A stretch of 64,000 nucleotides of DNA from Candidatus Contendibacter sp. (GTDB lineage: Bacteria; Pseudomonadota; Gammaproteobacteria; Competibacterales; Competibacteraceae): assembly GCA_029624675.1 (NCBI GenBank), contig JARSSP010000044.1:208897-272896 (forward strand), read 5' to 3'. Under the pieces are notes generated by a model, which did no database searches, was not told the origin of the DNA, and saw only the letters and a list, made by a program, of their open reading frames with translations. Positions 6,340-58,139 of this stretch are shown one piece after another. Each line of letters begins with the position of its first letter. The stretch's first letter is position 1. The position numbers and the translations under genes were made by a program.

Positions 6340-6816
6340 ATGAAAGCCTATTGGCTTGAAAACCAACTCACTCACAATGCGCGGGATTTCGCGCGCCAAA
6401 TCTGGCTGGCGGGACTGGGCGCCTTTGCCAGGGCCCAGGATGGGGGTGGCAAGTTTTTTGAAACGTTGATCCAGGAAGGACAGGCCGTGGACGCGCGAAT
6501 GAGAGAGATTGCCGATGATAAGACTGAAGCGGGCGAAACACTTGTGAAGAGCAAGGTCGAGGAAATTCGGGACAGGGCGACCGGAGCCTGGAACAAATTG
6601 GAGAAGGTTTTTCAGGCGCGAGTGGCGCGCGCCCTGCGCCGCCTGGGCGTGCCCAGCCGGGACGACATCCAGCAATTGTTTCAGCAGATCGATATGTTGA
6701 ATCAGAACATTTTGGAATTGACCCAGGCGGCGGAGACAGAAACCAAGGTAAGAAAAGTTCGCGCCATCCGGTCGCCCGATCCAGCCGCCGTCAAGATTGC
6801 CGAACCTATGGGGTGA
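6340..6816 (+). CDS. Phasin (polyhydroxyalkanoate granule-associated protein)
   Basis: 158 residues, predicted almost entirely helical. The N-terminal half holds the phasin-type segment ARQIWLAGLGAFARAQDGGGKFFETLIQEG, followed by a long amphipathic helix ending with RALRRLGVPSRDDIQQLFQQIDMLNQNI, typical of the PhaI/PhaF-like family. Phasins coat polyhydroxyalkanoate granules and control their size. No PHA synthase gene is in the window. The ATG at 6340 follows GAGGAGG; upstream in-frame ATGs give unconserved residues. This is the main indication of PHA storage in this organism. Confidence 0.88.
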   Translation: MKAYWLENQLTHNARDFARQIWLAGLGAFARAQDGGGKFFETLIQEGQAVDARMREIADDKTEAGETLVKSKVEEIRDRATGAWNKLEKVFQARVARALRRLGVPSRDDIQQLFQQIDMLNQNILELTQAAETETKVRKVRAIRSPDPAAVKIAEPMG

Positions 6817-6999
6817 TCGCCGTTCCAGCCTGGCCGTGGCGAACCAGGGCTCGGTCCTGACGACTGGTTAACTCGTCGTATTAAAGCAAGGGCCAGGGAG
6901 GGTCCGTTTTGCCTTTTTCCACCCCGAGTTCCGCGCATCAAATTGACCGTTTGCCGGTCGCAAGGTAACGTAAGCGCTTGCTAAAGCGGACGGGCAAGC

Positions 7000-18618: not shown

Positions 18619-19719
18619 TCACGCAGGTTCCAAAACCGCCCGGATTCGTTCCAGAAAATTTTCTCGGCAAAACAATTGCGCCCGCTCCTGACACGCGGCC
18701 CGCATGGCCAGGGCGGGGTTGCGTTCCAACCGGCGCACCGCCTGGACGATGTCTGGCACGGTCAACGTGGAAGGGACCAAAATCCCCGTCTCGCCATCCA
18801 CGATGGTTTCCAGCAAGCCCCCCTCCGCCACCCCGATCACCGGCTTTCCCGCCGCCATGGCTTCGACCGGCGACATGCCAAAATCCTCATCCATGGGCAG
18901 ATAAATGGCCGCGCGGGCGTTGCCGATCCACTCCCGTAATTGCGCCTCGGATTGCCAGCCGGTGAAATGAATATTCCGGGCACCGGCCGCCAAGCGTCGC
19001 AGATTCTCCAGTTCGGGCCCCCCGGAAACCACCACCAGTCGCTGATCCGGCATCCGCAAAAAAGCCCGAACGATCCACTCCACCCGTTTGGGCTGGGTCA
19101 GTCGCGCCAGGGAAACGAAATAATCGCCCGCGCCCAGCCAGCGAAAGCGCGCCACGTCGATCGGCGGGTAAATAACCTGGGCCTCGACACCCAGATAGTG
19201 CTTCAACCGTCTTTGCACATTGCTGGAATTGGCGATCACCGCATCCATGCCCGCGAGCGCCTGCTCGTATTCGCGCCGAAACCAGCGGATGCCCGCGTCG
19301 AAGACCGGACGCCACGGCAGGGGTATCGCGTTCCGATAGCCGGCGGCCCAATCATAGGCGTACCGGGGCGGGGTATGGCAGTAGTAAATCTTTCGGCCGG
19401 CACGCTGATGGCGCACGGCCAGCGGCGCATAAAAGCCGCTGTACAGCACCACTTCGGCATGGCGCAGAAAGCGGGTGGTCGTCCTGAACCGCCAAAGGGC
19501 TTCGGGAACGCGGCCTACCCACCGGCTGACGCTGGAGCCGAGGCAACGAATCGCTGGCATCCTGATATCCAACGCGCCGGCCTCCGGATAAATCCGCGCG
19601 ACCACCAACTGGAATTCCGGGAACGCATCGGCCAGCGTCAAAGTCAACCGCTCGGCGCCACCCGCGACTTGCAGGTAGTCATACAAAATGAATCGGTTCG
19701 GTGGGCGCAAGTCGTTCAT
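18619..19719 (-). CDS. Glycosyltransferase family 4 (GT-B) protein
   Basis: 366 residues. The C-terminal half shows the GT4 signature: DAVIANSSNVQRRLKHYLGV, then VIYPPIDVARF, LARLTQPKRVEWIVRAFLR, VVSGGPELENLRRLA and the nucleotide-sugar site DEDFGMSPVEAMAAGKPVIG followed by GGLLETIVDGETG. It should add a sugar from a nucleotide donor to the growing surface glycan in the cytoplasm. The ATG at 19719 overlaps the stop of the upstream glycosyltransferase (ATGA). Last gene of the polysaccharide operon. The sugar is not predictable. Confidence 0.9.
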   Translation of the reverse strand: MNDLRPPNRFILYDYLQVAGGAERLTLTLADAFPEFQLVVARIYPEAGALDIRMPAIRCLGSSVSRWVGRVPEALWRFRTTTRFLRHAEVVLYSGFYAPLAVRHQRAGRKIYYCHTPPRYAYDWAAGYRNAIPLPWRPVFDAGIRWFRREYEQALAGMDAVIANSSNVQRRLKHYLGVEAQVIYPPIDVARFRWLGAGDYFVSLARLTQPKRVEWIVRAFLRMPDQRLVVVSGGPELENLRRLAAGARNIHFTGWQSEAQLREWIGNARAAIYLPMDEDFGMSPVEAMAAGKPVIGVAEGGLLETIVDGETGILVPSTLTVPDIVQAVRRLERNPALAMRAACQERAQLFCRENFLERIRAVLEPA

Positions 19720-20987
19720 CCCAGGCTGGACAACAACTGATGATAGGCGGCGGCCCGGCTTTCCCAGGCATGTTGGCGGATGGCGTCGCGCTGGGGGGAA
19801 AACAGCGCGTTCAGCCCACCGCCGCGCCAAGCCTCGATCAGTTTGGCCAAGGACTCGCAAATACGGGCCACGTCATTCTCGACCACCAGCCCCGCGCCCA
19901 ACGCTTGAATAAGTTCAGCGCCGGGATCTGGCGCCCCGGTTTGGAGATGAAAAATCGGTTTGCCCGCGCCGAAATACTCGTACACCTTGCCCGGCAACTG
20001 ATAAGCCTGGACATTGCCGATGTTGAGCAGCAGATCGGCTTGGCGCTGCAATGCCAGACACTGGAAATGATCGATCCTCCCGGTGAATCGAACGTTCGGA
20101 ATCTGATCGAACAGCGCGCGAAAACGGGCGTTGTCGCCGGCGATGGTGAGCGTCGCCTCCCGCGCCGCCAAGGCGCGCAGCGCCAGGGCCAGACGTTCGG
20201 GACTGCGAAAATCCCGGTAAAACGTGCCGGTGAACACGATGTTCATCCGGTCCGCGGGCAGCGGCCACGTGGGCGGTAGCTGATCTCCGGGCTCGCGACG
20301 GGTGGGAAAACCCTGTGGAATGGAGAGAAACCGGGAACGGTCAACGAGATGATGCCGTTCGCACAAAAGGTCTTGCACGGAATCCGTGGTGACCACGATG
20401 CGGTCCGCTCGATCCAGTACGAACCGCTCAAACCGGCGATCAAGGCCGCGGCGCCAGACCGGTGTGTAAGGAGCCAGGAGAGGATCGCCCAAATCGATCA
20501 CCCAGCGCCGTGCAAAATGTTTCTTAGCCCACCAGCCCAGCAAAAGATCCACGCCGGGTTCATGCGAGCTAATCACCGCGTCAAAAGGGTATTGCGCCAG
20601 CAGCGCGCGCAATTTCGGCTTCGCGAATGGATACCACTCCGTCCGCAGATCCGGATAAAGCACCTGATCGAGCCCTCGGCGGATCAACCGATAGACCGCC
20701 AGTAGCACTGAGGGGGTCGTATCGCCGGCGGTGGCGGAGAGGGCTGACCGCTTCAGCGCGTTGGACGCCAGTCGTTGCGAAAGCCCGACGTAAGGACCCG
20801 GCCAGACCCGATGGGGAATGACGCGATCGTGCGAGCGAACCGGATAGTCGGGCAACGCGGGCAGCGCGGGGCACAACACATGAACTTCAACCCCCCGGCG
20901 AGCCAGTTCATCGCTCAGGTAAAACCAGCGCAGCGACTGCGCCGCGATAATCGGCGGAAATTCGTAGGCGATGAGCAGGATACGCAA
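19716..20987 (-). CDS. Glycosyltransferase family 4-like protein
   Basis: 423 residues. N-terminal domain: MRILLIAYEFPPIIAAQSLRW, a typical GT4 start, then DAVISSHEPGVDLLLG and DRIVVTTDSVQDLLCERH. C-terminal domain: NIVFTGTFYRDFRSPERLALAL, ADLLLNIGNVQAYQLPGKVYEYFGAGKPIFHL. It is likely to transfer one residue of the exported glycan. It overlaps the downstream transferase by four bases and starts three bases after the wecB stop. Donor and acceptor are unknown. Confidence 0.87.
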   Translation of the reverse strand: MRILLIAYEFPPIIAAQSLRWFYLSDELARRGVEVHVLCPALPALPDYPVRSHDRVIPHRVWPGPYVGLSQRLASNALKRSALSATAGDTTPSVLLAVYRLIRRGLDQVLYPDLRTEWYPFAKPKLRALLAQYPFDAVISSHEPGVDLLLGWWAKKHFARRWVIDLGDPLLAPYTPVWRRGLDRRFERFVLDRADRIVVTTDSVQDLLCERHHLVDRSRFLSIPQGFPTRREPGDQLPPTWPLPADRMNIVFTGTFYRDFRSPERLALALRALAAREATLTIAGDNARFRALFDQIPNVRFTGRIDHFQCLALQRQADLLLNIGNVQAYQLPGKVYEYFGAGKPIFHLQTGAPDPGAELIQALGAGLVVENDVARICESLAKLIEAWRGGGLNALFSPQRDAIRQHAWESRAAAYHQLLSSLG

Positions 20988-20990
20988 CGG

Positions 20991-22091
20991 TTATCCCATC
21001 AGCGACTCGCGCAGGATGGCGGCGATCCGTTCCGCCGCATGGCCATCGCCATAGGGCGAGACGCCCCGCGCCATGGAGGCGTAATGATGGGGATCGTCCA
21101 GCAGCCGCGCCGATTCCGCCAGGATGGCGTCATAATCCGGCCCCACCAGCTTGACCACGCCGACGCTCACCGCCTCGGGCCGTTCCGTTTCCCGGCGCAA
21201 CACCAGAACCGGTTTACCCAAGGCCGGCGCTTCTTCCTGCACGCCGCCAGAATCGCTCAGGATCAAATAGGCGCGCTTCATGGCCGCGACGAAGGGTAAA
21301 TAATCCAACGGCTCGCACAAGTGGATGCGTGGATGACCGGACAGCAGGACCTTGGCGACTTCGGCGACGTTCGGATTGGGATGAACGGGGTAGAGAATCT
21401 CAAGGTCCGTATAGCGATCCGCCAACGCCCGAATGGCCAGGCAGATTTGGCGAAACGGTTCGCCGAAATTCTCCCGGCGATGCGCCGTGACCAGAATCAG
21501 CCGTTTGGAAGCATCCAGCGCCACGCCGAGGTCCAGATCGCGTGGGGCCACGGTCATCAGGGCGTCAATCACGGTATTGCCCGTGACCACAATCGTTTCG
21601 GCCGGGATGCCTTCCCGCACCAGGTTCTCCCTGGCGCTTTGGGTGGGGGCGAAATGCCAGCGCGCCAGACGGCCTGTCACCACCCGGTTCATTTCTTCTG
21701 GAAAGGGATTGCGCAGATCCCCGGTGCGCAGACCCGCTTCGACGTGTCCGACCGGGATCCGGTGATAGAAGCAGGCCAGAGCCACGCTTAAAACCGTGGT
21801 CGTATCGCCTTGTACCAAGGCCACGTCGGGCCGTTCGGCCTGCAACACGTCATCGAGATCGAGCAGCAGCCGCGCCGTCAGCGTGGTGAGCGCCTGATTG
21901 GGCCGCATGATGTCAAGATCGATATCCGGTTCGATCCCGAAAATCGCCAGCACCTGATCCAGCATATGCCGATGCTGCGCCGTGGCCAGCACCCGGACCT
22001 TGGCCCAACCTTCTTTTCTCAGAGTCAGGATGACCGGCGCCATTTTAATGGCCTCCGGCCGCGTGCCGACGACGCAAAGAATTTTGCCCAT
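20991..22091 (-). CDS. wecB: UDP-N-acetylglucosamine 2-epimerase
   Basis: 366 residues. MGKILCVVGTRPEAIKMAPVI at the start, GDTTTVLSVALACFYHRIPVGHVEAGLRTGD, FPEEMNRV, TAHRRENFGEP, HPNPNV and LSDSGGVQEEAPALGKPVLVLR are all WecB/MnaA motifs. It makes UDP-ManNAc from UDP-GlcNAc, giving a donor for the surface glycan. A GTG at 22103 would add four residues; the ATG at 22091 matches homologues. No wecC is seen in the window. Confidence 0.95.
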   Translation of the reverse strand: MGKILCVVGTRPEAIKMAPVILTLRKEGWAKVRVLATAQHRHMLDQVLAIFGIEPDIDLDIMRPNQALTTLTARLLLDLDDVLQAERPDVALVQGDTTTVLSVALACFYHRIPVGHVEAGLRTGDLRNPFPEEMNRVVTGRLARWHFAPTQSARENLVREGIPAETIVVTGNTVIDALMTVAPRDLDLGVALDASKRLILVTAHRRENFGEPFRQICLAIRALADRYTDLEILYPVHPNPNVAEVAKVLLSGHPRIHLCEPLDYLPFVAAMKRAYLILSDSGGVQEEAPALGKPVLVLRRETERPEAVSVGVVKLVGPDYDAILAESARLLDDPHHYASMARGVSPYGDGHAAERIAAILRESLMG

Positions 22092-22117
22092 CTCGATGCC
22101 CACAGGTTCGACTGTTG

Positions 22118-23044
22118 TTAGCGCGAGTCAGTTCGCGCTGCGACTACAACGAAATCGCTCTGAATATCTCCGGAATCGACAAGAGCGTCCTCGATGTTGA
22201 TTAACATGTCGAGAATCAGCATGGATTGAGGGTCCGACGGCTTGAAATTGCCCGCGATTCCACTTAGCAGAAATTGCAGAAGGGAACCACCACACTGGTT
22301 GATCGTCACGATATCGAACAAATTTTTGACAACCGGTAAGATATCTTGTGACCTTACTGCTTCGGATGGATCGGTACGCGCGACCTCCCTGGGATCAGGA
22401 ATTGGTGGAGTTTCCTGGTATTTATTTTTCCGATCCACAAAGGAACGCCGATACTGTAGTGGAATCAGAAAAAACGCATGTTGGATTGCATCACGCTGAC
22501 GGCTTGGGAAAGCAAAACGATTAAAACCCACATACTCGTTAAAAAATAACCATCCTCCGGGTTTTAGGGCTTGTTTAACTCGTTGGCATACAATCTCCAG
22601 CTCCTTGATGTGATGCAGTGAACCATTAAACCAGACGACATCATATTGTTTAGCGCCTAAATCCATGGCTTCGACATCATGTACTGAATAGGTGATGGAT
22701 TCGATGCCAAGTTGATTGGACTCATTCTTAGCCGCTTCTATAGCCTTGGGAGAAATGTCAACGGCATGGCAATGCTGAAATGCCTTTAAATTGAATAGGT
22801 GGCGTTCCAAGCTGCCAGTTCCACAACCGATACTGAGCATTTTTTGTACAGGGACGCGATCTCCTAAAAACTCTCCAACACAATATTCGATCCAACTTGG
22901 GTAAGGTTTGTTCGCACAAGCTCTCTTCTGATAATGCTTCTGAACATCTGGTACCGCCAACCAATAAACATCAGGAGAGAAAGGATTAGAGCCAGCCAAA
23001 TTTTCTGACCAGTAGTCAGCAATTTTTCGTTTGTCGTCATTCAT
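22118..23044 (-). CDS. Class I SAM-dependent methyltransferase
   Basis: 308 residues. The SAM-binding motif MLSIGCGTGSLERHLF is at about residues 69-84, followed by AVDISPKAIEAAK and YDVVWFNGSLHHIKELE, then LKPGGWLFFNEYVGF, a typical methyltransferase order. Its place in the polysaccharide locus suggests that it methylates a sugar or acts on a lipid-linked intermediate, but the target is not shown. It is more AT-rich than genes outside the locus. Start ATG at 23044 (MNDDKRK). Confidence 0.88.
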   Translation of the reverse strand: MNDDKRKIADYWSENLAGSNPFSPDVYWLAVPDVQKHYQKRACANKPYPSWIEYCVGEFLGDRVPVQKMLSIGCGTGSLERHLFNLKAFQHCHAVDISPKAIEAAKNESNQLGIESITYSVHDVEAMDLGAKQYDVVWFNGSLHHIKELEIVCQRVKQALKPGGWLFFNEYVGFNRFAFPSRQRDAIQHAFFLIPLQYRRSFVDRKNKYQETPPIPDPREVARTDPSEAVRSQDILPVVKNLFDIVTINQCGGSLLQFLLSGIAGNFKPSDPQSMLILDMLINIEDALVDSGDIQSDFVVVAARTDSR

Positions 23045-23090: not shown

Positions 23091-26000
23091 TCAACGATGC
23101 GCGTGGGGTTTCCATTGCCCCCATTTCTTTTCATAATAAGCTTGGTTATTGGCCCAAATCCTTTGATATTCACCAGTTTCAATCAGCTTCTTGAATGCTG
23201 CCTGACCAAAGTGGTGAACAAATGCATCCTCAGCGCATACCACACGGAAGCCTTTTTCGCGAACGCGATTGCTATAATCGTCATCTTCAAACATGCCGAT
23301 TCCAAAGTTTTCATCCAGGAAACCTACACATTCGAATACACTACGCCGCATCGCTACACAAAACATGGCGAGCACCGCAATGTCGAAAATCTTGCCTGAA
23401 TGAGTATATATGTAACGGTCGGCGAATGATTCCATTTCATCCAGCGATGAGTAATCAACATCGACTTTGGCTTCGTTCCCCACAAAATTGGTTACAGGCC
23501 CAACCAATCCTATATTCGGATCTTTCAAATGCAGCAGCAGCGGATCAAGCCAGCCTCGAGGCATCACAGTGTCATTGTTCAGCAAAACAATGTATTCACC
23601 CGTAGCCACTTTAAGTCCCTGATTGTTGGCCACGGCAAAACCGAGATTTTGACTATTTAGAATAATCTTGACGCGATCGGAAGTCCGAGCCAGATAACGC
23701 AAATAATTGCGAGTATCATCGGACGAAGCATTATCCACGATAATGACCTCGTACCTGGGATATGTTGTGTTGCGGAAAATGCTTTCAATGCAAAGACGGG
23801 TCAAGTCACAATTGTTGTAGGTAATGACGATGATCGAAACTTTTTCATAAAGAGCAATGATTGCGGAAGAAAAAGCTTCAAAGCGGCTAGTCCAATCGTT
23901 ACGTTGAGCCAATTCTACTCTTCTGTTGAATAAATCAGGATCAATTTCGCCAAGCGCCATTTCAATCTTCCGTAGAAATTGCTCTGGTTGGCTGGCGAAA
24001 TAGATATAATCACTGTATATTTTCAATTCTTCCAATGGCACCGATACAATGGGTTTGCCAGCGCTAATGAATTCGTAAAACTTCACAGGATCAACTGCAT
24101 GCGTTACATTGTTAAGCTTGAACGGAATCAGGCATACATCGAAGTGGTAGAGGAATTTCGGCATGTCTAGATAAGGTTGCCGTCCTGGCATATACACATT
24201 AAATATTTTAGCCAATCCAGCCGTATCTTTGACAAAGATATCGCCGATCAATACAAAACTCCAATCAGGCCTGCTCTGCGCCAGGAAGGATAGTAATTCG
24301 AAATCAACCCATTCGGCTAGTGCTCCGTAGTAACCGATTATGGGGTGAGTTATATCCTCCAGCAAACGATTTGGAGAGCAATACTCCCTGAAAAATACAT
24401 AATCAACCGCATTCCGAATTAGTACGCAACGCTGGGCGACCGACGACCATTTTTCGTAAAGAAGCGATGCAGTAACAGTAACAAGATCGCTTTGTCGAAC
24501 CAAAATTTCCTCCTGGTCGATTAAGGCCTTGCCAATATTTGGAAAATCAACCCACTCATCCATGCAATCGTATAAAATTTTCCAGTCATATCGAGCTCTT
24601 AATTCAAGAGCCAGAGGCGTCCAGTAAGGAATATGAACCACCGAAAGGGCGGTCTTAATCCGATAATCCTTCATTAATTCAGCCAGGGATTCGAGGAAAT
24701 CGATCTTATTTCGATATTCCATCATCTCGCCATAGAAATTTTGAGTCAAGCCAACCCGTAAGCACACCTCATATACATGTTCGGCTACTTTTTCAACCAT
24801 GTAGGCTGTATTCGATGGAGGGAGTTTTGAGGCAATGATATAAAAAACCCGATAGCCATTTTTTGCAAACTGACTCATAATGTGTTGAGGACGCTGATAA
24901 CGCGCCGACCATTCAATGTTGGCGAAGCAAATTACATCGAAGGAAGCCAAGGCCGATTGAGCCGCAGATTGAGGGGCGACATTATCAACAACAGGTGACT
25001 GAACATCCAATGATTGCTGATCATTGGATGCGCCAATTATCGATTTTCCATGTTCAAAAGTTAACAGACTGGCCAACTTTTTACTCAAAAGTTTATCACA
25101 AGAATAAATCCATGTATGGTGGATGACATTGATAATTCCACCTTTATTGTAAGCATCTTTCACATCATGAATTCTCAGATCCATCCAGTTTCTAATATTC
25201 GCGGTGGACCTTAATGGAGAGGTGATTTTCCAGCTTAAGCTTGCGAGTAAGTCATTAACCCAGCGAGTTAGCTCCACCTCACGATATTCTAGATAATGAA
25301 CACGATTATCAAGACTCTCTCGCACCAGTTTGAGTTGATTTAACTCAGTTGAATTATTCCTCTTTTCTTCCTCTAATGCACGAATTCTGGCGCGAGCGGA
25401 TTCGATTTCGGCGCGAGCGGATTCGATTTCGGCGCGAGCGGATTCGATTTCGGCATTATATCTCGCAACTTCGGCGTCGCGACTTATCAAAGCAGTCTCT
25501 AATTCGAAGGCCGGCAGTTTACAATTTAGGTAAATATCCGGTCTTTCTATCGATATGCCTGTTACAAATTTACGTAATTCTAGCTCTTTCAGCAAATGAA
25601 CTGAATACTGCTCGTCAGAGATATCTAATCCACATGTTTTTACAGCCTTCTGAATGAAAGTTTTCCATTCAATTAATCTTCCATCATTGGGAATCGCACA
25701 CTGGGAAGTATTTCCAAGTGCCACAAACAATCCTCTGAATAGTAAAAAATCAAGCGTTATCGTGTCAGCACTCTCCCATTCCAAATCAAAGTGCTCAAAC
25801 CCACCATTATGTTTGACGATAATATTTTGTGGTAATAAATCTATGAAATACCCAGGCAAGTTGGCTTTGGACGATTCTTTATCAAGGTCAATACTTCGCA
25901 AACTAGCTACCGATCGTATTGCACGAATATAACGCTTTAAAAAAAATCCAACTTCGGATATTGACCATCCAGTACGACTGATAGTTTCGATGAATTCGCG

Positions 26001-27221
26001 TAAAAGAAGCTTCCCACTAATATAAGCCGAGCTATCTGGAACGGAAAAGTAAAGCTCTCCAGATGAAGTTGGTCCTCTATGATCTGCATTGGACGCAAGT
26101 CGGCGATATTGAACAATTATGTCGCCAGATTCTTTTTCGATAAATCGGGTTTCTTTACAAAATTGAGGTCGTCGCTCCGTAGTATAATGAAAAGCCAGAA
26201 TATTTGGCCTATTTGATTCCCGACTGGATATTGATGCAACGATGAGAAATGAATTGGCCATATCCATGGCTAACCCGTTTTTGAATATTTCAGGCCAGGC
26301 TAGTTCAAGCGCAAAACTGGTATGTACAGGCAGTTGAGGATCACGCCTGACGCTTTGCCACGCCAAGGTGGCCGCATCAAAGGCTTGGTTATTCATACCT
26401 TGCTCAGTCAAAATCGAAACAGGTAATTTGTAATCCGGGAATGGAGCTAAAAATTCCACCGATTCAAATCCAGCATCCTTCAGCATCCGTTTTAAAACAA
26501 CTTTGCCAAATGTTTGTGGTTGACCATTTCTATAGCGAGCCTCAATGCCATACATTGATTTTCCAAGGTGATCCTCGGGCGCACCGGCAAAATACTTCAA
26601 ACCTAGTTGGTTCTCTATTGCAATGATTAGCTTTCCACTGGGCTTTAATAGCGACTGGGCGCGCTGCAACATGGATAGCGCCGGATCATCATGGTTAGAA
26701 AATAAGTTAGCATACTCAAGCACGCCAATCAGAGTGATGACATCAAATTTCTGAGCACACTGAAACTGATTAAAGTCGTCCACAACTACAGCAACATTTG
26801 GCAGATCTCGTGTCCTTGATTTGGCAATAGCCGCACGCCGGGGACTACCTTCAAGTGCCAATACATTTCCACCGCACTCACCCAAATAACGGGTAATCGC
26901 TCCACAACCAGCACCAATTTCTAGGATATCCCCACGAAGATCGGCTTCAAAGGGGCGCAAGATATTAGCACGCGCGCTGGTAAGGTGATACAACGATGGC
27001 CAGTCGATGCAATATTGGCGAAGTTCAGTGGATAATACTGTAATATTGTTTGCCTGCTTGATTAAGCCGGCAATGCGTTGCTCAACTTCATCGCCATCCG
27101 AATAGGAAAAATGGAAGCGGTTTCGATTGGGTAGCCAACACTGGCTGTTCTCATCAAACCGGTAGTCGTCAAGGGATAAATTTATGCTCTGACCAGGCAG
27201 GTCGATAGTACTATTTTTCAT
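23091..27221 (-). CDS. Multidomain methyltransferase/kinase-like/coiled-coil/glycosyltransferase fusion
   Basis: 1376 residues. Order of parts: SAM methyltransferase with ILEIGAGCGAITRYL (about 99-113) and FDVITLIGVLEYANLF. A possible kinase-like region follows (about 340-500), with FCKETRF near 354 and FIDLLPQNIIV...FDLEW (459-482), in which D461 and N466 look like a catalytic loop. A coiled coil with three exact AEIESAR heptads spans about 580-660. A GT-B domain runs from about 760 to 1110 (YQRPQHIM, YYGALAEWVDFELL, PVKFYEFISAGKPIV). A C-terminal GT2 domain starts near 1127 (VSIIVITYNN, IVDNASSDDT, LLNNDT). The methyltransferase-kinase-coiled coil order recalls E. coli WbdD, the chain terminator and ruler of ABC-exported O-antigen; here it is fused to two transferases. 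The kinase reading is an inference. It lies between wzt and a second methyltransferase. Confidence 0.85.
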   Translation of the reverse strand: MKNSTIDLPGQSINLSLDDYRFDENSQCWLPNRNRFHFSYSDGDEVEQRIAGLIKQANNITVLSTELRQYCIDWPSLYHLTSARANILRPFEADLRGDILEIGAGCGAITRYLGECGGNVLALEGSPRRAAIAKSRTRDLPNVAVVVDDFNQFQCAQKFDVITLIGVLEYANLFSNHDDPALSMLQRAQSLLKPSGKLIIAIENQLGLKYFAGAPEDHLGKSMYGIEARYRNGQPQTFGKVVLKRMLKDAGFESVEFLAPFPDYKLPVSILTEQGMNNQAFDAATLAWQSVRRDPQLPVHTSFALELAWPEIFKNGLAMDMANSFLIVASISSRESNRPNILAFHYTTERRPQFCKETRFIEKESGDIIVQYRRLASNADHRGPTSSGELYFSVPDSSAYISGKLLLREFIETISRTGWSISEVGFFLKRYIRAIRSVASLRSIDLDKESSKANLPGYFIDLLPQNIIVKHNGGFEHFDLEWESADTITLDFLLFRGLFVALGNTSQCAIPNDGRLIEWKTFIQKAVKTCGLDISDEQYSVHLLKELELRKFVTGISIERPDIYLNCKLPAFELETALISRDAEVARYNAEIESARAEIESARAEIESARARIRALEEEKRNNSTELNQLKLVRESLDNRVHYLEYREVELTRWVNDLLASLSWKITSPLRSTANIRNWMDLRIHDVKDAYNKGGIINVIHHTWIYSCDKLLSKKLASLLTFEHGKSIIGASNDQQSLDVQSPVVDNVAPQSAAQSALASFDVICFANIEWSARYQRPQHIMSQFAKNGYRVFYIIASKLPPSNTAYMVEKVAEHVYEVCLRVGLTQNFYGEMMEYRNKIDFLESLAELMKDYRIKTALSVVHIPYWTPLALELRARYDWKILYDCMDEWVDFPNIGKALIDQEEILVRQSDLVTVTASLLYEKWSSVAQRCVLIRNAVDYVFFREYCSPNRLLEDITHPIIGYYGALAEWVDFELLSFLAQSRPDWSFVLIGDIFVKDTAGLAKIFNVYMPGRQPYLDMPKFLYHFDVCLIPFKLNNVTHAVDPVKFYEFISAGKPIVSVPLEELKIYSDYIYFASQPEQFLRKIEMALGEIDPDLFNRRVELAQRNDWTSRFEAFSSAIIALYEKVSIIVITYNNCDLTRLCIESIFRNTTYPRYEVIIVDNASSDDTRNYLRYLARTSDRVKIILNSQNLGFAVANNQGLKVATGEYIVLLNNDTVMPRGWLDPLLLHLKDPNIGLVGPVTNFVGNEAKVDVDYSSLDEMESFADRYIYTHSGKIFDIAVLAMFCVAMRRSVFECVGFLDENFGIGMFEDDDYSNRVREKGFRVVCAEDAFVHHFGQAAFKKLIETGEYQRIWANNQAYYEKKWGQWKPHAHR
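25391..25453. repeat. Three perfect 21-bp tandem repeats in the coiled-coil region
   Basis: Three identical 21-base copies lie at 25391-25411, 25412-25432 and 25433-25453. On the coding (minus) strand each encodes exactly one heptad, AEIESAR (residues 590-610 of the fusion protein). Gain or loss of a unit would lengthen or shorten the coiled coil by one heptad without a frameshift. Confidence 0.95.
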
Positions 27222-27242: not shown

Positions 27243-27974
27243 TCACGATGAATAATAATTGATGATGTCATCCACAGATCCCCTCATTTTTATGAGGCCA
27301 TGTTGCAACCATATGACATCATTGCAAAGCTGCTTGATTGCGCTTGGGTTATGTGAAACAACAAGAATTGTTGATCCATTATTGGAGTATTGTAGAATTC
27401 TTTGTGCAGATTTTTTCTGAAACTCAACATCTCCCACTGATAATATTTCATCAATAACCAGGATATCTGGCTGAACATCGGTTGCAACCGCAAATCCCAG
27501 TCTTGCCACCATGCCGCTGGAATAGGTACGAATTGGAGCGTCAATAAACTCGCTGATGCCAGAAAATTCCACGATTCTATCCAAGCGGCTTGCAATATCT
27601 TTTCGATTAAAACCCAATACGGCTCCATTGAGAAAAATATTTTCCCTGCCTGTCATCTCATAGTCGAACCCTGCACCCAGTTCCAATAATGGCGCGATGC
27701 GTCCTCTCAGAAAAACGCGACCGTACGTTGGGCGAATAACCCTTGAGATAACCTTAAGCAGGGTGCTCTTGCCAGCGCCGTTGGCGCCAATGATGCCGAC
27801 TGTTGCACCCTGCTTGATCGAGAAACTGACATTGTTCAATGCATTGAAGTCGGAAAAACTGACACTACGTCTCTTCAGCCAACGTATCGCATATTCCTGC
27901 AACGTGGGAATCTTTTCATGAGGAATGCGAAACCGTACCGTTACGTCATTGAGTTGTATCGCGGTATTTTCCAT
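27243..27974 (-). CDS. wzt: Polysaccharide ABC exporter ATPase (Wzt/KpsT type)
   Basis: 243 residues. Walker A is GANGAGKST, the Q-loop region includes ISRVIRPTYGRVFLRGRIAPLLELGAGFD, the ABC signature is YSSGMVARLGFA and Walker B is PDILVIDEI. AALLELGAGF-type sequence is typical of polysaccharide exporters (ABC-2 family). The protein ends soon after the nucleotide-binding domain, so it lacks the C-terminal carbohydrate-binding domain of E. coli O9a Wzt. It is two bases downstream of the permease and powers export of undecaprenyl-linked glycan. Confidence 0.94.
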   Translation of the reverse strand: MENTAIQLNDVTVRFRIPHEKIPTLQEYAIRWLKRRSVSFSDFNALNNVSFSIKQGATVGIIGANGAGKSTLLKVISRVIRPTYGRVFLRGRIAPLLELGAGFDYEMTGRENIFLNGAVLGFNRKDIASRLDRIVEFSGISEFIDAPIRTYSSGMVARLGFAVATDVQPDILVIDEILSVGDVEFQKKSAQRILQYSNNGSTILVVSHNPSAIKQLCNDVIWLQHGLIKMRGSVDDIINYYSS

Positions 27975-27976
27975 TA

Positions 27977-28789
27977 TTACAGGCGATAGGCAAGTTGGTC
28001 AGCCTTGCTGGTGAACAGGACCCAGCCAGCGACCAAGGTGATTAGCGCGAGAGATGCGGCGTTTACAACGAGACTGAAATCTGGGAGATGGTTGGCATGG
28101 ATCGGTATTCGAAAAACTTCGATTAGAATAACGAAAGGATTCAATGCAAGCAATTGATTTAGCTCGGGTGGAAGAATTGATGGGGGATACATGATGGGGG
28201 TTAGGAAGAATAAAGCCTGAATCAGCACCTGATAAATATCGACCGTATCGGTGAAGAATACTGACGCGGTGGATAAAAATAGTGCAAGACCCAGCGAGAA
28301 AATAGCCAGAATCACGATACTGACTGGTAAAAACAGCCAAGCCCAGGTTATTTCATGGTGGAGGAAAATGATAATGACCAACAGAGCGCCAACCGAAACG
28401 ACCAAATTGACCAAACCATTGCCGACCGCTGCGATAATATAGGTGGCGCGTGGAATATAGACCCTTTTCAGCAATCCCCCACCATAGGCCATGCTGTTCA
28501 TGGCGTATTGGGTGGTTTGTGTGATAAAGTTCCACGCTAACAATCCAGTCAAGAGATAAACTGCGTAACTGGGTATTGATGACTTGAACATCGTCCCGAA
28601 TGCGACACTGAGCACGATCGTCTGCAACAGTGGATTGAGCAGCATCCAGAAGACGCCCAGCACCGAACGCTTGTAGCGGTTCTTCAGGATGCTTTCCACC
28701 ATCAAGAAGATCAAGTCGCGATAACGAATCAGTTGAAAAAATTCGTCGATCGCGGGCGGTGGTCTTTTAGCTGAATCGTACTCAAGCAT
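27977..28789 (-). CDS. wzm: Polysaccharide ABC exporter permease (Wzm type)
   Basis: 270 residues with about six membrane segments (for example AVYLLTGLLAWNFITQTTQYAM, LVNLVVSVGALLVIIIFLHHE, WAWLFLPVSIVILAIFSLGLALFL). The cytoplasmic start holds LIFLMVESILKNRYKRSVLGVFW, the classic ABC-2 polysaccharide exporter motif. It is first in the minus-strand operon, followed by wzt. The start ATG at 28789 lies only eight bases from the divergent ATG at 28798, so the promoters of the two genes must lie inside each other's coding region. The frame is open upstream to 29071, but that extension has no conserved content. Confidence 0.93.
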   Translation of the reverse strand: MLEYDSAKRPPPAIDEFFQLIRYRDLIFLMVESILKNRYKRSVLGVFWMLLNPLLQTIVLSVAFGTMFKSSIPSYAVYLLTGLLAWNFITQTTQYAMNSMAYGGGLLKRVYIPRATYIIAAVGNGLVNLVVSVGALLVIIIFLHHEITWAWLFLPVSIVILAIFSLGLALFLSTASVFFTDTVDIYQVLIQALFFLTPIMYPPSILPPELNQLLALNPFVILIEVFRIPIHANHLPDFSLVVNAASLALITLVAGWVLFTSKADQLAYRL

Positions 28790-28797
28790 TATTCGAA

Positions 28798-30132
28798 ATG
28801 GATACCAATTTTTTTTTGATCGACACGGTGATCGCGGGCGGTCTATTGGCGTTTGCGATCGCATTCTTCCTGAGTCGGCGCTTGGCGCGCGCGGTCGCCT
28901 TGCCGGGCTTGCTCGATCATCCCAATGCGCGTTCCTTGCACCAGCGGCCCGTTCCAAGAACCGGCGGGTTGGCCATGCTGGCGGGAATGATGATCGGTAT
29001 GTCGCCAACGATGCTCGCGACCGCCGACCCGCCGCTTCAAGCTTTTGGACCTGTTTTCGCGGGCTTGGCATCGCTGGCGTTGGTTGCGTTGGTCGATGAC
29101 TGCCAGGGTGTCGCCGCTAGGTGGCGCATCTTAGTTCATCTGCTGGCCGCTGTCAGCCTGTTGGCGGCTGGTCTTGCTCCCGACCGTTTCGAACTTCCCG
29201 GTCTTGCCTGGCCCATTCCCGTCTGGGTAACAACTCCCCTGACCCTGTTGCTCATCGTCTGGATGATCAACCTCTACAACTTCATGGATGGCATGGACGG
29301 CTTCGCCGGCGGCATGGCGGTGATCGGGTTTGCCACGCTAGCCTGGTTGGGACGGGCCGATGGCGGGTTCGTAACCCTTTGCCTGACGACGGCGGCGGCC
29401 AGCGCCGGGTTCCTAGTCCATAATTTCCCGCCGGCGAAACTCTTTCTCGGCGACACCGGCTCCACCACTCTAGGCTTCCTGGCAGTGGCGTGCGGCTTGT
29501 GGGGCAACAAGGTCGGACTGTTCCCGTTCTGGGTGGCGTTGCTGGTATTTTCGCCGTTTATCACCGACGCAACCGTAACTCTTCTGCGTCGCCTGCTGCG
29601 CGGCGAGAAGGTTTGGGAAGCCCATCGAACCCATTGTTATCAACGCCTGGTGCTGCTCGGCTGGGGCCATCGCCGAACGGTGTTGGTCGAGTACGCACTG
29701 ATGCTGACCTGTGCCGGGTCGGCGCTGTTGGCGGTCCGGTTGCCCCCCGCCGGCCAGGTGGCGCTGACAGTTGGTTGGATAGTCGTCTACGGACTCCTGA
29801 TGGGGTGCGTGGAGTGGTTGGAGCGGCGGCATGTCGCCTTGGCACCGCTTGCTCGTTCAATAGCGTTGCAGGATCAGCTCCAGCACCAGCTTGCTGCCGA
29901 AATAGGCCAACGCCAGAAAAGCGAAGCCGCTCAGGGTCCAGCGAATGGCGGTGCGACCGCGCCAGCCGAAGCGCCAGCGGCCCCACAACAGCACCCCAAA
30001 CACCCCCCAGGCCACGAACGAAAGCGTCGCCTTATGCGCCAAGTGTTGGGCAAACAGGTCGTGCAGGAAAAACAAGCCGCTGACCAGGGTGATGCCGAGC
30101 AGGACAAAACCGGCGCCAATCATCTGGAATAA
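28798..30132 (+). CDS. WecA/WbpL-type undecaprenyl-phosphate glycosyl-1-phosphate transferase
   Basis: Glycosyltransferase family 4 (MraY/WecA) membrane protein. It shows LLDHPNARSLHQRPVPRTGG, the aspartates in LVDDCQGVAARW, NFMDGMDGFAGGMAV, KLFLGDTGSTT and AHRTHCYQRLVLLG, with about ten membrane segments. It starts polysaccharide synthesis by moving a sugar-1-phosphate from a UDP-sugar onto undecaprenyl phosphate. The conserved part ends near residue 350. The frame continues for about 90 charged, Gln/Ala-rich residues that are antisense to ypjD (276 bases of overlap); this tail is either real or the result of a lost stop codon. It faces wzm. Confidence 0.82.
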   Translation: MDTNFFLIDTVIAGGLLAFAIAFFLSRRLARAVALPGLLDHPNARSLHQRPVPRTGGLAMLAGMMIGMSPTMLATADPPLQAFGPVFAGLASLALVALVDDCQGVAARWRILVHLLAAVSLLAAGLAPDRFELPGLAWPIPVWVTTPLTLLLIVWMINLYNFMDGMDGFAGGMAVIGFATLAWLGRADGGFVTLCLTTAAASAGFLVHNFPPAKLFLGDTGSTTLGFLAVACGLWGNKVGLFPFWVALLVFSPFITDATVTLLRRLLRGEKVWEAHRTHCYQRLVLLGWGHRRTVLVEYALMLTCAGSALLAVRLPPAGQVALTVGWIVVYGLLMGCVEWLERRHVALAPLARSIALQDQLQHQLAAEIGQRQKSEAAQGPANGGATAPAEAPAAPQQHPKHPPGHERKRRLMRQVLGKQVVQEKQAADQGDAEQDKTGANHLE

Positions 30133-45095: not shown

Positions 45096-45980
45096 ATGGC
45101 CTACAAAGGTATCATTCTCGCCGGCGGCTCCGGCACCCGGCTGCACCCGCTGACGCTCACGGTCAGCAAACAACTCATGCCGGTCTACGACAAACCGATG
45201 ATCTATTACCCGATCGCCACCCTGCTGCTGGCAGCGGTCCGGGACATTCTCGTCATCACCACCCCGCGCGACCAGGAGGCGTACCAAACCCTGCTGGGCG
45301 ATGGGAGCCAGTGGGGCGTGAACTTCCAGTACGCGGTCCAGCCCAGTCCCGACGGGCTGGCGCAAGCCTTCCTGATCGGCGAGACGTTCATCGGGCGCGA
45401 TCCGGCCTGCCTGATCCTCGGCGACAACATTTATTATGGGCAAGGACTGTCGGCGGTGCTGCGCCGGGCCGCCAGCCGCGAGCGGGGAGCCACGGTGTTC
45501 GGCTATTACGTGCGCGACCCCGAACGCTACGGCGTGGTCAGCTTCGACGCCAGCGGCCGGGCGATGGACATCGAGGAAAAGCCGAAGAAGCCCAAATCCA
45601 ACTATGCGGTGACCGGCTTGTATTTCTACGACAACGACGTGGTGAATGTTGCCAAGAACATCCAGCCCTCGCCGCGCGGCGAGCTGGAAATTACCGATGT
45701 CAACAAGGTCTATCTGGAGCGCGGCGCGTTGAACGTCGAGGTGCTGGGGCGCGGCTACGCCTGGCTGGATACCGGCACCCACGAATCGCTGTTGGCGGCG
45801 GCTCATTTCGTGCAGGTGGTGGAACAACGGCAGGGTTTGAAGGTCGCTTGTCCCGAGGAGGTGGCCTGGCGGATGGGATTGATCGACGACGCGCAATTGA
45901 CGCGCCTGGCCGAGCCGCTGGCCAAGAGCGGCTACGGTCAATACCTGTTCGAACTGCTGGATCGGAGAATCGCATCGTGA
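45096..45980 (+). CDS. rfbA: Glucose-1-phosphate thymidylyltransferase
   Basis: 294 residues. [35 protein letters not shown] is the RfbA nucleotide-binding start; [37 protein letters not shown] and [14 protein letters not shown] complete the pattern. It makes dTDP-glucose for dTDP-L-rhamnose. Its stop overlaps the rfbC start (GTGA). Confidence 0.96.
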
Positions 45981-46591
45981 AGGTGATCGAAACCGGCCTG
46001 CCCGGCGTGCTGCTGCTGGAGCCGAAAGTGTTCGGCGACGCGCGGGGGTTTTTCATGGAAACCTGGCAGGCGGCGCGCTACCGCGAGGCCGGCCTGCCCG
46101 AACGCTTCGTTCAGGATAACCATTCCCGTTCCCGCCGGGGCGTGCTGCGCGGTCTGCACTATCAATTGATCCAGCCCCAGGGCAAGCTGGTTTGGGTGAC
46201 GCGCGGGGCGGTGTTCGACGTGGCGGTGGACATTCGTCCGGGTTCGCCGAGCTTCGGCCGCTGGTACGGCTGCATCCTGGACGACGTCGCTCATCGGCAA
46301 TTGTATGTCCCGCCGGGTTTCGCGCACGGGTTTTGCGTGGTGTCGGACGAGGCGGACTTCTTCTACAAATGCACCGACTACTACCATCCCCCGTCGGAGC
46401 GCGGCATCGCCTGGGACGACCCGGCGATTGGCATTGAATGGCCGCTGCGGGAGGTGTCGCTGTCGGCCAAGGACCAACAAAATCCCCGGTTGAACGCGCG
46501 GCGTCCCGAGGATTTACCGGTTTACGAAGATTCCCCCTCACCTCCAACCCCTCTCCCTCAAGGGGCAAGGGGAGCGTTGAACGAGGACTGA
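45977..46591 (+). CDS. rfbC: dTDP-4-dehydrorhamnose 3,5-epimerase
   Basis: 204 residues from the GTG at 45977, which overlaps the rfbA stop. Conserved parts are [78 protein letters not shown] and [20 protein letters not shown]. The normal domain ends near residue 185. The last about 18 residues ([19 protein letters not shown]) come from an interspersed C-rich repeat that has replaced the original end of the gene. Confidence 0.95.
46533..46580. repeat. Interspersed C-rich repeat in the rfbC tail
   Basis: CCCCTCACCTCCAACCCCTC followed by TCCCTCAAGGGGCAAGGGG forms a C-rich half pairing partly with a G-rich half. It resembles the element at 13911-13950 and is read as [12 protein letters not shown] in rfbC. 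Repeats of this kind occur in many copies in some proteobacteria. Confidence 0.65.
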
Positions 46592-55784: not shown

Positions 55785-58139
55785 ATGAGCAAAACGAGCT
55801 TTCTTTCTCCAGCCGGCCCGTTGCTGGCTTTGCTGCTGGGCGCGTGCGCGACCGCGCCGTCCGGCCAGAACGCCCCGGAGGTTCCGCTCCCTGGTGGGGC
55901 GCCGCGATTGACCGCGCAACCGCAGTCCTTGCCAGAACCGGCCAAGGCCGGCATGGATTTGGCGCCGGCCCCCAAGGCCCCGCTGATTTTTCCGAGCACC
56001 GGCGATTTCATCGACCAGAAGGCCGCGACCAAGCCGCCGCCCGCGCCCCGAACCGCGCCCGGCGAGGTCACCCTCAATTTCGACGGCGCCGACATCCGCG
56101 ACGTGGTCAGGGTCATTTTCGACACCCTCAAGGAAAATTACACGGTCGATCCCCAGGTGCAGGGCGAAGTGACGGTGCAGACCAGCCGGCCACTGGCGCG
56201 GGATCAATTGCTGCCTACATTGGAGACTCTGCTGCGGGCGAATCAGGCGGTGCTGGTGCGTGAGGGAAGCCTCTATAAGATCCTGCCGGCGGCCGGCGCG
56301 GTTCGACGGGGTCATCTGGCACCGCGACTGGGCGGCGGCGGGGTGGGATACGGGGTGCGGATCATTTCCCTGAACTACATCAGCGCCGTCGAGATGCAGG
56401 CGATCATCGCGCCCTTCGTGCCCGAGGGCGGCGTGCTCCGGGCGGATGTCGCCCGCAACCTGCTGATCGTGGCCGGCACCCCCCAGGAGCTGGCCAGCGT
56501 GCAGAGCACGATCGACACCTTCGACGTGAACTGGCTCAAGGGCATGTCCATCGGCATGTTCCGACTGCGCAACGTGGACAGCCAGACCGTGGCCGGCGAA
56601 TTGAACCAGTTGCTGGGCGAGGGTTCCGGCACGCCCATCGCCGGCTTGCTCCGCTTCGTACCGCTCGGCAAGCTGAACGCCGTGCTGGTGATCACGCCCC
56701 AGGTGGAATACCTCAAGCAGGTGGCGACCTGGATCGAACGGCTGGACGGCATCGGCGGCGAGCGACTGTATGTGTATGCGGTGCAGCATAGCCGGGCCGA
56801 CTACATGGCCGAGTTGCTCAACAGCCTGTTCAACCTGGGCGGCGGCGGCGCGGCCCGCGGCGGCGACGTGGCGCCGGGTCTAAGGTCAGGACAACTGTCC
56901 GGTGGCGCGGCGACGACGAGTGGATTATCGGGCGGTTCGGGCCTGGGCGGCAGCTCAGGGTTGGGCGGGAGCAGTTCGGGCCTGGGCGGCAGCTCAGGGT
57001 TGGGCGGGAGCAGTTCGGGGTTGGGTGGCAGCAGTTCGGGGCTGGGCGGGAGCAGTTCGACGGGATCCGGCTTGGGGTCTTCCCGTGGAACGCTTTCCGG
57101 TGGTTCGGGATCATCCCTGGGTGGTCGCTCCGGCGGTCGTTCCAGTGGCGCGGGCGGCGGTGGGGTTGGCGCCCTGGGTTCCGGCGGACCCAGCGCGGGC
57201 ATGGAAGAAGTCCGTATCGTGGCCGACCCCGATAACAATTCGCTGTTGATCTGGGCCACCAGCCAGAATTACGAACGGATCATGAGTACCTTGGAAAAAA
57301 TGGACGTTCCACCCCGGCAGGTGCTGATCGAGGCGACCATCGCCGAGGTGTCCCTGACCGGCAATCTGAAATATGGAGTGCAGTGGTTTTTCAACAACCG
57401 GGTTGGCAACGGCTACACCGGCAACGGCTCGCTCGGTCTTCCGAACGACCTGACGTTGACGGATGTGCTTTCCGATATCCCGGCCGGTCAATTCTCCTAC
57501 GCCATCACCGACAGCGCGGGGGTGGTCAAGGCACTGCTGAACGCGCTGGCCACCGATTCCAAGGTCAAGGTGCTCTCCTCGCCACAGATCATGGTGTTGG
57601 ACAACCAGCAGGCGTCGATTCGGGTCGGCACCCAGACGCCCGTTCCCGCCCCGCAAACCATTTATGGAGGCACCACCATCACCACCGGCGGCGCGGATTA
57701 CAAGGACACGGGCGTGTTGCTGGAGGTGTTGCCCCGGGTCAATTCCGGCGGCATGGTGAACATGGAGATCAAGCAGGAGGTCGTCGAGCCAGGCCCGTTG
57801 GTCGAAGTCAGCCAGACCGGAGCGGTGGCCAACAAGCAACGGGCGTTTTTGCAACGCAACGTCACCAGCAAGGTGGTGGTCAAGAGCGGCCAGACCCTGG
57901 TGCTGGGCGGTCTGATCCGCGACAACCGCACCGATGGGCAGAGTGGCTTCCCGATTCTCTACAAGATTCCGGTGCTGGGCGCGCTGTTTGGCAACACCGA
58001 GGAACAGGTGGATCGTACCGAACTGATTGTGTTGATCACCCCGCGGGTGGTACGGAACAGCGAGGAGGCCAGCCAGGTGACCGAAGAGATCAAGCGTAAG
58101 ATGCAGCAGATCGCGCCGGTGGTGACGCCCGCCGGTTGA
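55785..58139 (+). CDS. gspD: Type II secretion outer-membrane secretin GspD
   Basis: 784 residues. A lipoprotein signal (PLLALLLGACATAPSG; lipobox LLGAC) is followed by N-domains (VTLNFDGADIRDVVRVIFDTL; VRIISLNYISAVEMQAIIAPFVP). The C-terminal secretin barrel starts near residue 500 (QVLIEATIAEVSLTGNLKYGVQ; DNQQASIRVGTQTPV; LLEVLPRVNSGGMVNMEIKQEV). A long Gly/Ser linker with repeated GGSSSGLGG units lies at about residues 365-465. The lipid anchor may allow outer-membrane targeting without a separate pilotin. Last gene of the operon. Confidence 0.95.
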   Translation: MSKTSFLSPAGPLLALLLGACATAPSGQNAPEVPLPGGAPRLTAQPQSLPEPAKAGMDLAPAPKAPLIFPSTGDFIDQKAATKPPPAPRTAPGEVTLNFDGADIRDVVRVIFDTLKENYTVDPQVQGEVTVQTSRPLARDQLLPTLETLLRANQAVLVREGSLYKILPAAGAVRRGHLAPRLGGGGVGYGVRIISLNYISAVEMQAIIAPFVPEGGVLRADVARNLLIVAGTPQELASVQSTIDTFDVNWLKGMSIGMFRLRNVDSQTVAGELNQLLGEGSGTPIAGLLRFVPLGKLNAVLVITPQVEYLKQVATWIERLDGIGGERLYVYAVQHSRADYMAELLNSLFNLGGGGAARGGDVAPGLRSGQLSGGAATTSGLSGGSGLGGSSGLGGSSSGLGGSSGLGGSSSGLGGSSSGLGGSSSTGSGLGSSRGTLSGGSGSSLGGRSGGRSSGAGGGGVGALGSGGPSAGMEEVRIVADPDNNSLLIWATSQNYERIMSTLEKMDVPPRQVLIEATIAEVSLTGNLKYGVQWFFNNRVGNGYTGNGSLGLPNDLTLTDVLSDIPAGQFSYAITDSAGVVKALLNALATDSKVKVLSSPQIMVLDNQQASIRVGTQTPVPAPQTIYGGTTITTGGADYKDTGVLLEVLPRVNSGGMVNMEIKQEVVEPGPLVEVSQTGAVANKQRAFLQRNVTSKVVVKSGQTLVLGGLIRDNRTDGQSGFPILYKIPVLGALFGNTEEQVDRTELIVLITPRVVRNSEEASQVTEEIKRKMQQIAPVVTPAG
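56928..57065 (+). repeat. Gly/Ser-coding tandem repeats in gspD
   Basis: A stretch of imperfect repeats of about 15-27 bases, based on GGCGGGAGCAGTTCGGG, encodes GGSSSGLGGSSGLGG-like units in the loop between N-domains of GspD. Its length probably varies between strains by slippage. Flexible linkers of this kind are found at this place in other secretins. Confidence 0.85.

Follow-up and report, generated by a model that had tools for sequence, protein, structure and literature searches.

Gene content of the locus and architecture of the protein

The 64,000-nucleotide stretch of Candidatus Contendibacter sp. DNA analyzed here (the window) carries on its minus strand a gene for a 1376-aa protein that is probably a terminator-polymerase, one that would both build and cap a surface sugar chain. 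The wzt and wzm genes of an ABC transporter are located directly upstream, and genes for a methyltransferase, WecB and two glycosyltransferases are found downstream. The features are listed below by their positions in the window.

18619-20987, minus strand: two glycosyltransferase genes, ORFs 19716-20987 and 18619-19860 (Pfam/NCBIfam)
20991-22103, minus strand: WecB UDP-GlcNAc 2-epimerase (TIGR00236, above cut-off)
22118-23044, minus strand: stand-alone methyltransferase (a similar ORF comes after the related gene of genome G006)
23091-27221, minus strand: probable terminator-polymerase, 1376 aa, with methyltransferase, cryptic kinase, coiled coil, SWKITSPLR, TuaH-like glycosyltransferase and GT2
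23181-23840, minus strand: GT2 glycosyltransferase module, aa 1128-1347 (PF00535, E 3e-31)
23871-24692, minus strand: TuaH-like glycosyltransferase module, best match aa 844-1117 (NCBIfam NF047676, E 9.8e-30, below the equivalog cut-off)
25209-25235, minus strand: coil-end motif SWKITSPLR, similar to WbdD SRSWRMTKGYR and to that found in the sulfotransferase-coil proteins
25221-25508, minus strand: coiled-coil spacer, about aa 572-667, with the array inside (helix model and heptad register)
25392-25454, minus strand: the array, a 21-bp unit present in triplicate without mismatch and encoding AEIESAR x3 (aa 590-610); the periodicity is perfect from 25389 to 25454
25557-26534 (boundaries approximate), minus strand: cryptic kinase-like region, D461-LLPQN466 and D479-LEW (invariant residues; D461 corresponds to O7 D441)
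26613-26966, minus strand: SAM methyltransferase domain, about aa 86-203 (Pfam Methyltransf_12/23/25, and residues at the published O7 SAM-site positions)
27243-27974, minus strand: Wzt-like ABC ATPase, 243 aa, without a C-terminal cap-binding domain (Pfam/NCBIfam)
27977-28792, minus strand: Wzm-like ABC permease, 271 aa (PF01061; start placed at MLEYDS)
28798-30132, plus strand: divergent gene of the sugar-1-phosphate transferase family (PF00953), to which WecA belongs

The kinase-like region had no Pfam kinase match, and its residues D461, N466, D479, E481 and W482 were invariant in the nine rows of the family alignment (n = 9/9; alignment positions plus 30 give the numbering of the window protein). 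A PDB profile search with the TuaH-like glycosyltransferase returned 0 matches. A single-sequence structure model, with a mean pLDDT of 37.1 and informative for the coil helix only, placed helices at residues 572-619 and 624-671, with a block of pLDDT 71-81 at about 590-650. Unit positions 3 and 6 were hydrophobic across the array and in most of the flanking coil; one heptad, at 618-624, lacked a core residue. The AEIESAR copies start at residues 590, 597 and 604 and the register runs through them, bearing out the proposal of the earlier note that each repeat is an in-frame heptad unit of a coiled coil.

The 21-bp array

The array unit, GCCGAAATCGAATCCGCTCGC, stands in three adjoining head-to-tail copies on the minus strand: 25392-25412, 25413-25433 and 25434-25454. 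The earlier note had described three identical 21-base copies encoding AEIESAR, and these were recovered by an exact search, by the lag-21 run and by TRF (25381-25454, period 21, 3.5 copies, score 132); it had located the array properly, although its span of 25391-25453 was one base out of codon phase.

A search of the window that tolerated up to three mismatches detected no further match to the unit, and shuffled sequences gave a mean of 0.01 match, none of 100 reaching three. The exact self-match at lag 21 was 45 nt long, which corresponds to 66 perfectly periodic nucleotides, against a median of 8 for the best exact run over lags 6-299; only lag 39 had a longer run, located in a Gly/Ser tract near 57 kb. 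The agreement of codons across the three copies has a chance probability of 1.6e-7, calculated with the gene's own codon usage and with the protein repeat taken as given, indicating that the array originated by recent DNA duplication and not by convergence on a heptad. A chance origin is ruled out by the shuffles, the lag statistics and the codon identity. Elsewhere in the genome from which the window comes, nothing comparable was found (next best E 0.12), and a plasmid search with the array DNA gave zero matches. A separate Gly/Ser-rich tandem array, with 39-bp and 21-bp periods, was observed at 56935-57059 of the window, in a GspD-like secretin ORF (55785-58139).

Comparison with known terminators and exporters

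ORF6 of Klebsiella pneumoniae O7 is described as both terminator and polymerase; its N-terminal methyltransferase is followed by a kinase lacking annotation, by a coil and by a pair of glycosyltransferase modules, and a coiled-coil ruler is presented as characteristic of terminators in the same source (PMC11231755). The window protein shares with it the domain order, the kinase without a Pfam match, the six-residue spacing, the catalytic Asp and an ABC-transporter cluster. The O7 residues Y28, Y66, G91, G93, E112 and Y158 correspond to Y40, Y78, G103, G105, E124 and Y170 of the window protein, all displaced by +12, and the catalytic D441 corresponds to D461, displaced by +20, the O7 positions being those published in PMC11231755 and not from an aligned sequence. 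The two proteins differ in their glycosyltransferases (one TuaH-like and one GT2 in the window, two GT2 in O7), and the heptad DNA array and the Wzt without a cap-binding domain were found on the window side, the O7 Wzt itself being outside this comparison. The O7 protein also has a CBM-like fold ahead of its coil, which the same paper reports as lacking in other terminators (PMC11231755), so that it was not taken as defining the type. An O7-like CBM was not found before the coil of the window protein, where homology on the kinase side extends to about aa 555 and the coil helix begins at 572, leaving no room for one. With its SAM-site residue spacing, its unannotated kinase with a catalytic Asp, and its coil between terminator and polymerase modules, the window protein has, as judged from its sequence, the architecture of an O7 ORF6-type methyltransferase-kinase terminator, and methyl-phosphate capping is predicted for it.

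WbdD of Escherichia coli O9a is a proven coiled-coil ruler of an ABC-transporter pathway, and insertions or truncations in its coil are reported to give longer or shorter O antigen (PMC5082667). Like the window protein it has a methyltransferase, a kinase and a coil followed by an S-x-S-W-R/K motif; unlike it, it has a different kinase, no glycosyltransferase modules and no 21-bp array, and its length is fixed among the E. coli matches listed. Membership of the window protein in the WbdD family was rejected, since WbdD has APH/Pkinase Pfam matches that are absent from the window protein and hhalign found only a weak fold similarity (probability 48) over 42 columns, all in the methyltransferase. 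A third point of comparison, E. coli TolA, is not a glycan terminator and has far more units, but in its helical spacer, too, there are tandem repeats that keep the reading frame, with a strain-variable copy number that has a phenotypic effect; the repeat contracts at 6.9e-5, and strains have between 8 and 16 units (PMC3477136).

The window Wzt (243 aa) contains no Wzt_C domain, and its second-best NCBIfam match was the galactan export Wzt model (244 positions, E 5.2e-58, below its cut-off). Wzt_C was likewise missing in all the sulfotransferase-coil clusters, described below, where a Wzt was found (n = 6/6; 232-253 aa from the match start), whereas the Wzt proteins of two named methyltransferase-kinase relatives had 453-455 aa and the domain was present. 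Export in the window's system may thus not need to read a cap, and the locus resembles an O7-type capping enzyme combined with a gene cluster in which the putative exporter does not read it.

Turnover of the array and its distribution in related proteins

A cluster syntenic with that of the window was found in G006, a genome of the same family (wzm 76% and wzt 83% identical). The polymerase halves of the two proteins were 67-72% identical; the N-terminal enzyme of G006 was a sulfotransferase (PF13469), replacing the methyltransferase-kinase. At the matching place the G006 coil has an array of its own, [T/A]DLDTAR x3, with two exact copies. Compared between the two genomes, the unit is identical at 15 of 21 bases and different at 6, while the window copies agree with one another at 63/63 positions. 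Near-identity of the copies within each genome, together with divergence between the units, implies that the array was homogenized or re-expanded in at least one lineage; the array has thus turned over since the divergence of the two. Three units were present in both genomes. In G028, from another genus, the repeats were of 84 bp (four heptads; 2.5 copies at 99%). The polymerase half was present in 3 of the 40 genomes searched at the order level, the window's own included.

Sulfotransferase-coil proteins, some with glycosyltransferases (G006, G028, the pA and pB proteins of Cereibacter and others), have the coil-end motif and coil-compatible DNA arrays, and those of G006 and G028 also have a polymerase half homologous to that of the window; they differ in that a sulfotransferase replaces the methyltransferase-kinase, and their capping role is putative. 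The wzm and wzt genes preceded the sulfotransferase-coil gene in six of nine regions. Family and class searches with the G006 sulfotransferase yielded 47 loci, which with L028 and L033 made 49; after removal of three duplicates and two loci with tails shorter than 150 bp, 44 ORF tails (54.2 kb) were scanned with TRF. The control consisted of SMC hinge loci from the window's family, of which 29 of the 30 returned were scanned (88.4 kb; the short L171 was omitted).

Scores of at least 120 were obtained in 11 of the 44 tails and in none of the 29 SMC loci (Fisher p = 0.0024), a difference confined to the tail of strong arrays, with a threshold picked after the data had been seen, a control drawn from one family against test loci drawn from a class, and two pairs of sister loci (L112/L117 and L127/L128) that are not independent. 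With scores of at least 80 the counts were 13/44, one of them a 6-bp repeat, and 2/29 (Fisher p = 0.02). When the best scores of the loci were compared by a rank test, in which SMC was scored over more sequence, no general shift over SMC emerged (p = 0.999): most of the 44 tails had no array at all and a quarter had strong ones, 33 scoring below 120. The best arrays of the 13 loci scoring at least 80 had periods of 21, 63 or 84 bp in nine loci, 33, 96 and 129 bp in three, and 6 bp in one; 33, 96 and 129 bp correspond to 11, 32 and 43 residues, lengths that can all be composed of sevens and elevens. No array was detected in the 14 methyltransferase-kinase-type loci scanned (a set that excludes L065-L068, L080 and L083) or in two plasmid loci of this type, the window being the only one of its type with an array.

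Heptad-number differences between species and strains

The window's genus includes the species represented by G018 and by G015, whose proteins were 79% identical and aligned with a single gap, of 7 residues, in the coil. Two genomes of one genus, G189 and G394, had four and nine heptads, respectively, of a 21-bp unit between conserved flanks, the reading frame of G394 breaking just ahead of the nine-heptad array. At that locus (L134, about 6690-6890) the sulfotransferase frame is broken upstream of the array and two ORFs overlap through it, for which a switch, decay or a sequencing error are all possible. Coil gaps of 7 and 14 residues (the latter split into 4 + 10 by the aligner) separated G123 from G246. 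Gaps that are not whole heptads also occurred, of 4 and 6 residues in pairs with L091, and of 3, 7, 5 and 5 between L093 and L097.

A copy-number difference among isolates, as in a variable-number tandem repeat (VNTR), was found for a related gene within Cereibacter sphaeroides. In the sulfotransferase-coil gene of plasmid pB (in 2.4.1, NZ_CP030274, CDS 45176-46591), the 21-bp array of KD131 is shorter than that of 2.4.1 by precisely one 21-bp unit, which encodes ALEQCVA; in IL106, whose DNA is 89% identical, the differences from 2.4.1 are +21, -7 and +2 residues. No unit change was observed among seven 2.4.1-type records (six of 1416 bp, one of 1414 bp), which are 99.7-100% identical and were taken to be lines of a single strain. 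In each of five strains the pA homologue was 452 aa long, and the three strains scanned had a 63-bp array in it. In E. coli, at least 80% of wbdD was present in 210 of 5426 genomes; its length was 2127 bp in 48/48 of the full-length matches listed from a spread sample, and no 21-bp array was found in it. In E. coli GZ04-0086 (L079, 5295-6266) wbdD is cut by an IS1-like element and its C-terminal end remains; this locus had been a candidate module swap, which was rejected in favor of truncation by IS1.

From these comparisons, coil length in this class of terminator-like proteins changes in heptad steps that appear to arise by tandem duplication, with the window array as a recent instance. The suggestion of the earlier note that such an array tunes glycan length is plausible and partly supported: variation in the number of heptads among related coil proteins, both between strains and between species, and turnover of the array between genera, speak for it, but the fixed wbdD, the unchanged 2.4.1 records and the window Wzt without a cap-binding domain do not. 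No description of heptad-number variation in glycan terminators was found among the open-licence PMC papers listed by literature searches.

Interpretation of the array

We consider it moderately likely that the array is a recent in-frame heptad duplication in the coil spacer of an O7 ORF6-type terminator-polymerase, and that slippage or recombination resets the ruler of an ABC-dependent glycan. Capping of the growing chain would fall to the N-terminal methyltransferase-kinase, and the coil would keep this cap module apart from the membrane-proximal glycosyltransferases by about 13 heptads (roughly 13-14 nm). One heptad (about 1 nm) in register would be added with each unit, and slippage in replication or recombination between units would lengthen or shorten the spacer with frame and register kept. 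Duplication and loss of heptads would then be a route by which coil length changes over evolution, between species and sometimes between strains. The earlier note's idea of a molecular ruler stands for the type of protein, through homology to the O7 terminator-polymerase; for this particular gene, it is from that homology and the literature on WbdD (PMC5082667) that we infer a ruler role for the coil and, by analogy, a shift in glycan length per unit and selection of such shifts.

A nearly even chance can be given to neutral turnover, in which duplications arise everywhere, coils tolerate multiples of seven residues, and copy number has no function within the tolerated range. Coil-compatible periods are expected from the register alone, strong arrays are absent from most relatives, and the seven 2.4.1 records show no unit change. 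However, the long SMC coils of the same family have no strong arrays, the window and G006 hold three units each despite their diverged unit sequences, and the pA homologue is constant in length despite its array, which looks like a length constraint. The records that fit neutrality also weigh against the array being a contingency locus, the strong form of the earlier note's idea, where frequent switching of copy number would maintain several ruler lengths in one population: they are laboratory lines without a unit difference, and three units in 66 bp are short for a hypervariable repeat. The contraction rate and strain variation of tolA, which has many more units, lend this reading a precedent; we consider it very improbable.

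The function of the coil could also be simpler, that of a plain spacer or oligomerizer. Where the Wzt of a transporter has no cap-binding domain, chain length would be set by the ratio of export to polymerization, and the short window Wzt, with a galactan export model as its second-best match, would suit such a system. The capping module at the far end of the coil is nevertheless conserved and apparently intact, as in the K. pneumoniae terminators of PMC11231755, and we regard a plain spacer as rather doubtful. The array might instead be a joint for module exchange, with terminator and polymerase halves recombining in or beside the coil and the heptads left as scars or acting as aids. The different N-terminal enzymes of the window and G006 on similar polymerase halves are in line with this, as are the start of their blastn similarity at base 1769 of the CDS, a single base inside the array, and the pairing of an O7-type terminator with a short Wzt as in the six sulfotransferase clusters. 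The arrays of both genomes, though, lie on the polymerase side and their units are related, so they need not mark a breakpoint, and slippage accounts for the length differences between strains without any exchange; this reading is unlikely. A terminator swap was observed between L028 (8885-12054) and the window (23091-27221), where a sulfotransferase and a methyltransferase-kinase, respectively, are joined to much the same polymerase half in two Competibacter-type genomes.

Proteins of this kind were already known; what is new is the recurrent turnover of heptad units in the coils of glycan-terminator-like proteins. The chain length of surface glycans shapes encounters with phages, surfactants, serum and neighbors. 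The one-unit allele of KD131 and 2.4.1 makes the tuning idea directly testable, these two laboratory-tractable strains offering one natural difference of 21 bp with which glycan length can be compared. A wider generalization of the heptad-duplication reading is tentative and, in our estimate, on the improbable side: in capping enzymes, in-frame tandem repeats of coil units, heptads and also 11-residue units, would be a recurrent dial with which lineages and strains reset the length of ABC-transporter-dependent glycans in steps of about 1 nm, the AEIESAR array being one setting.

Among the sulfotransferase-coil loci, L110 (genome G095) contained five and a half near-exact 33-bp copies at aa 324-383 of its ORF, each copy corresponding to an 11-residue (hendecad) coil unit.
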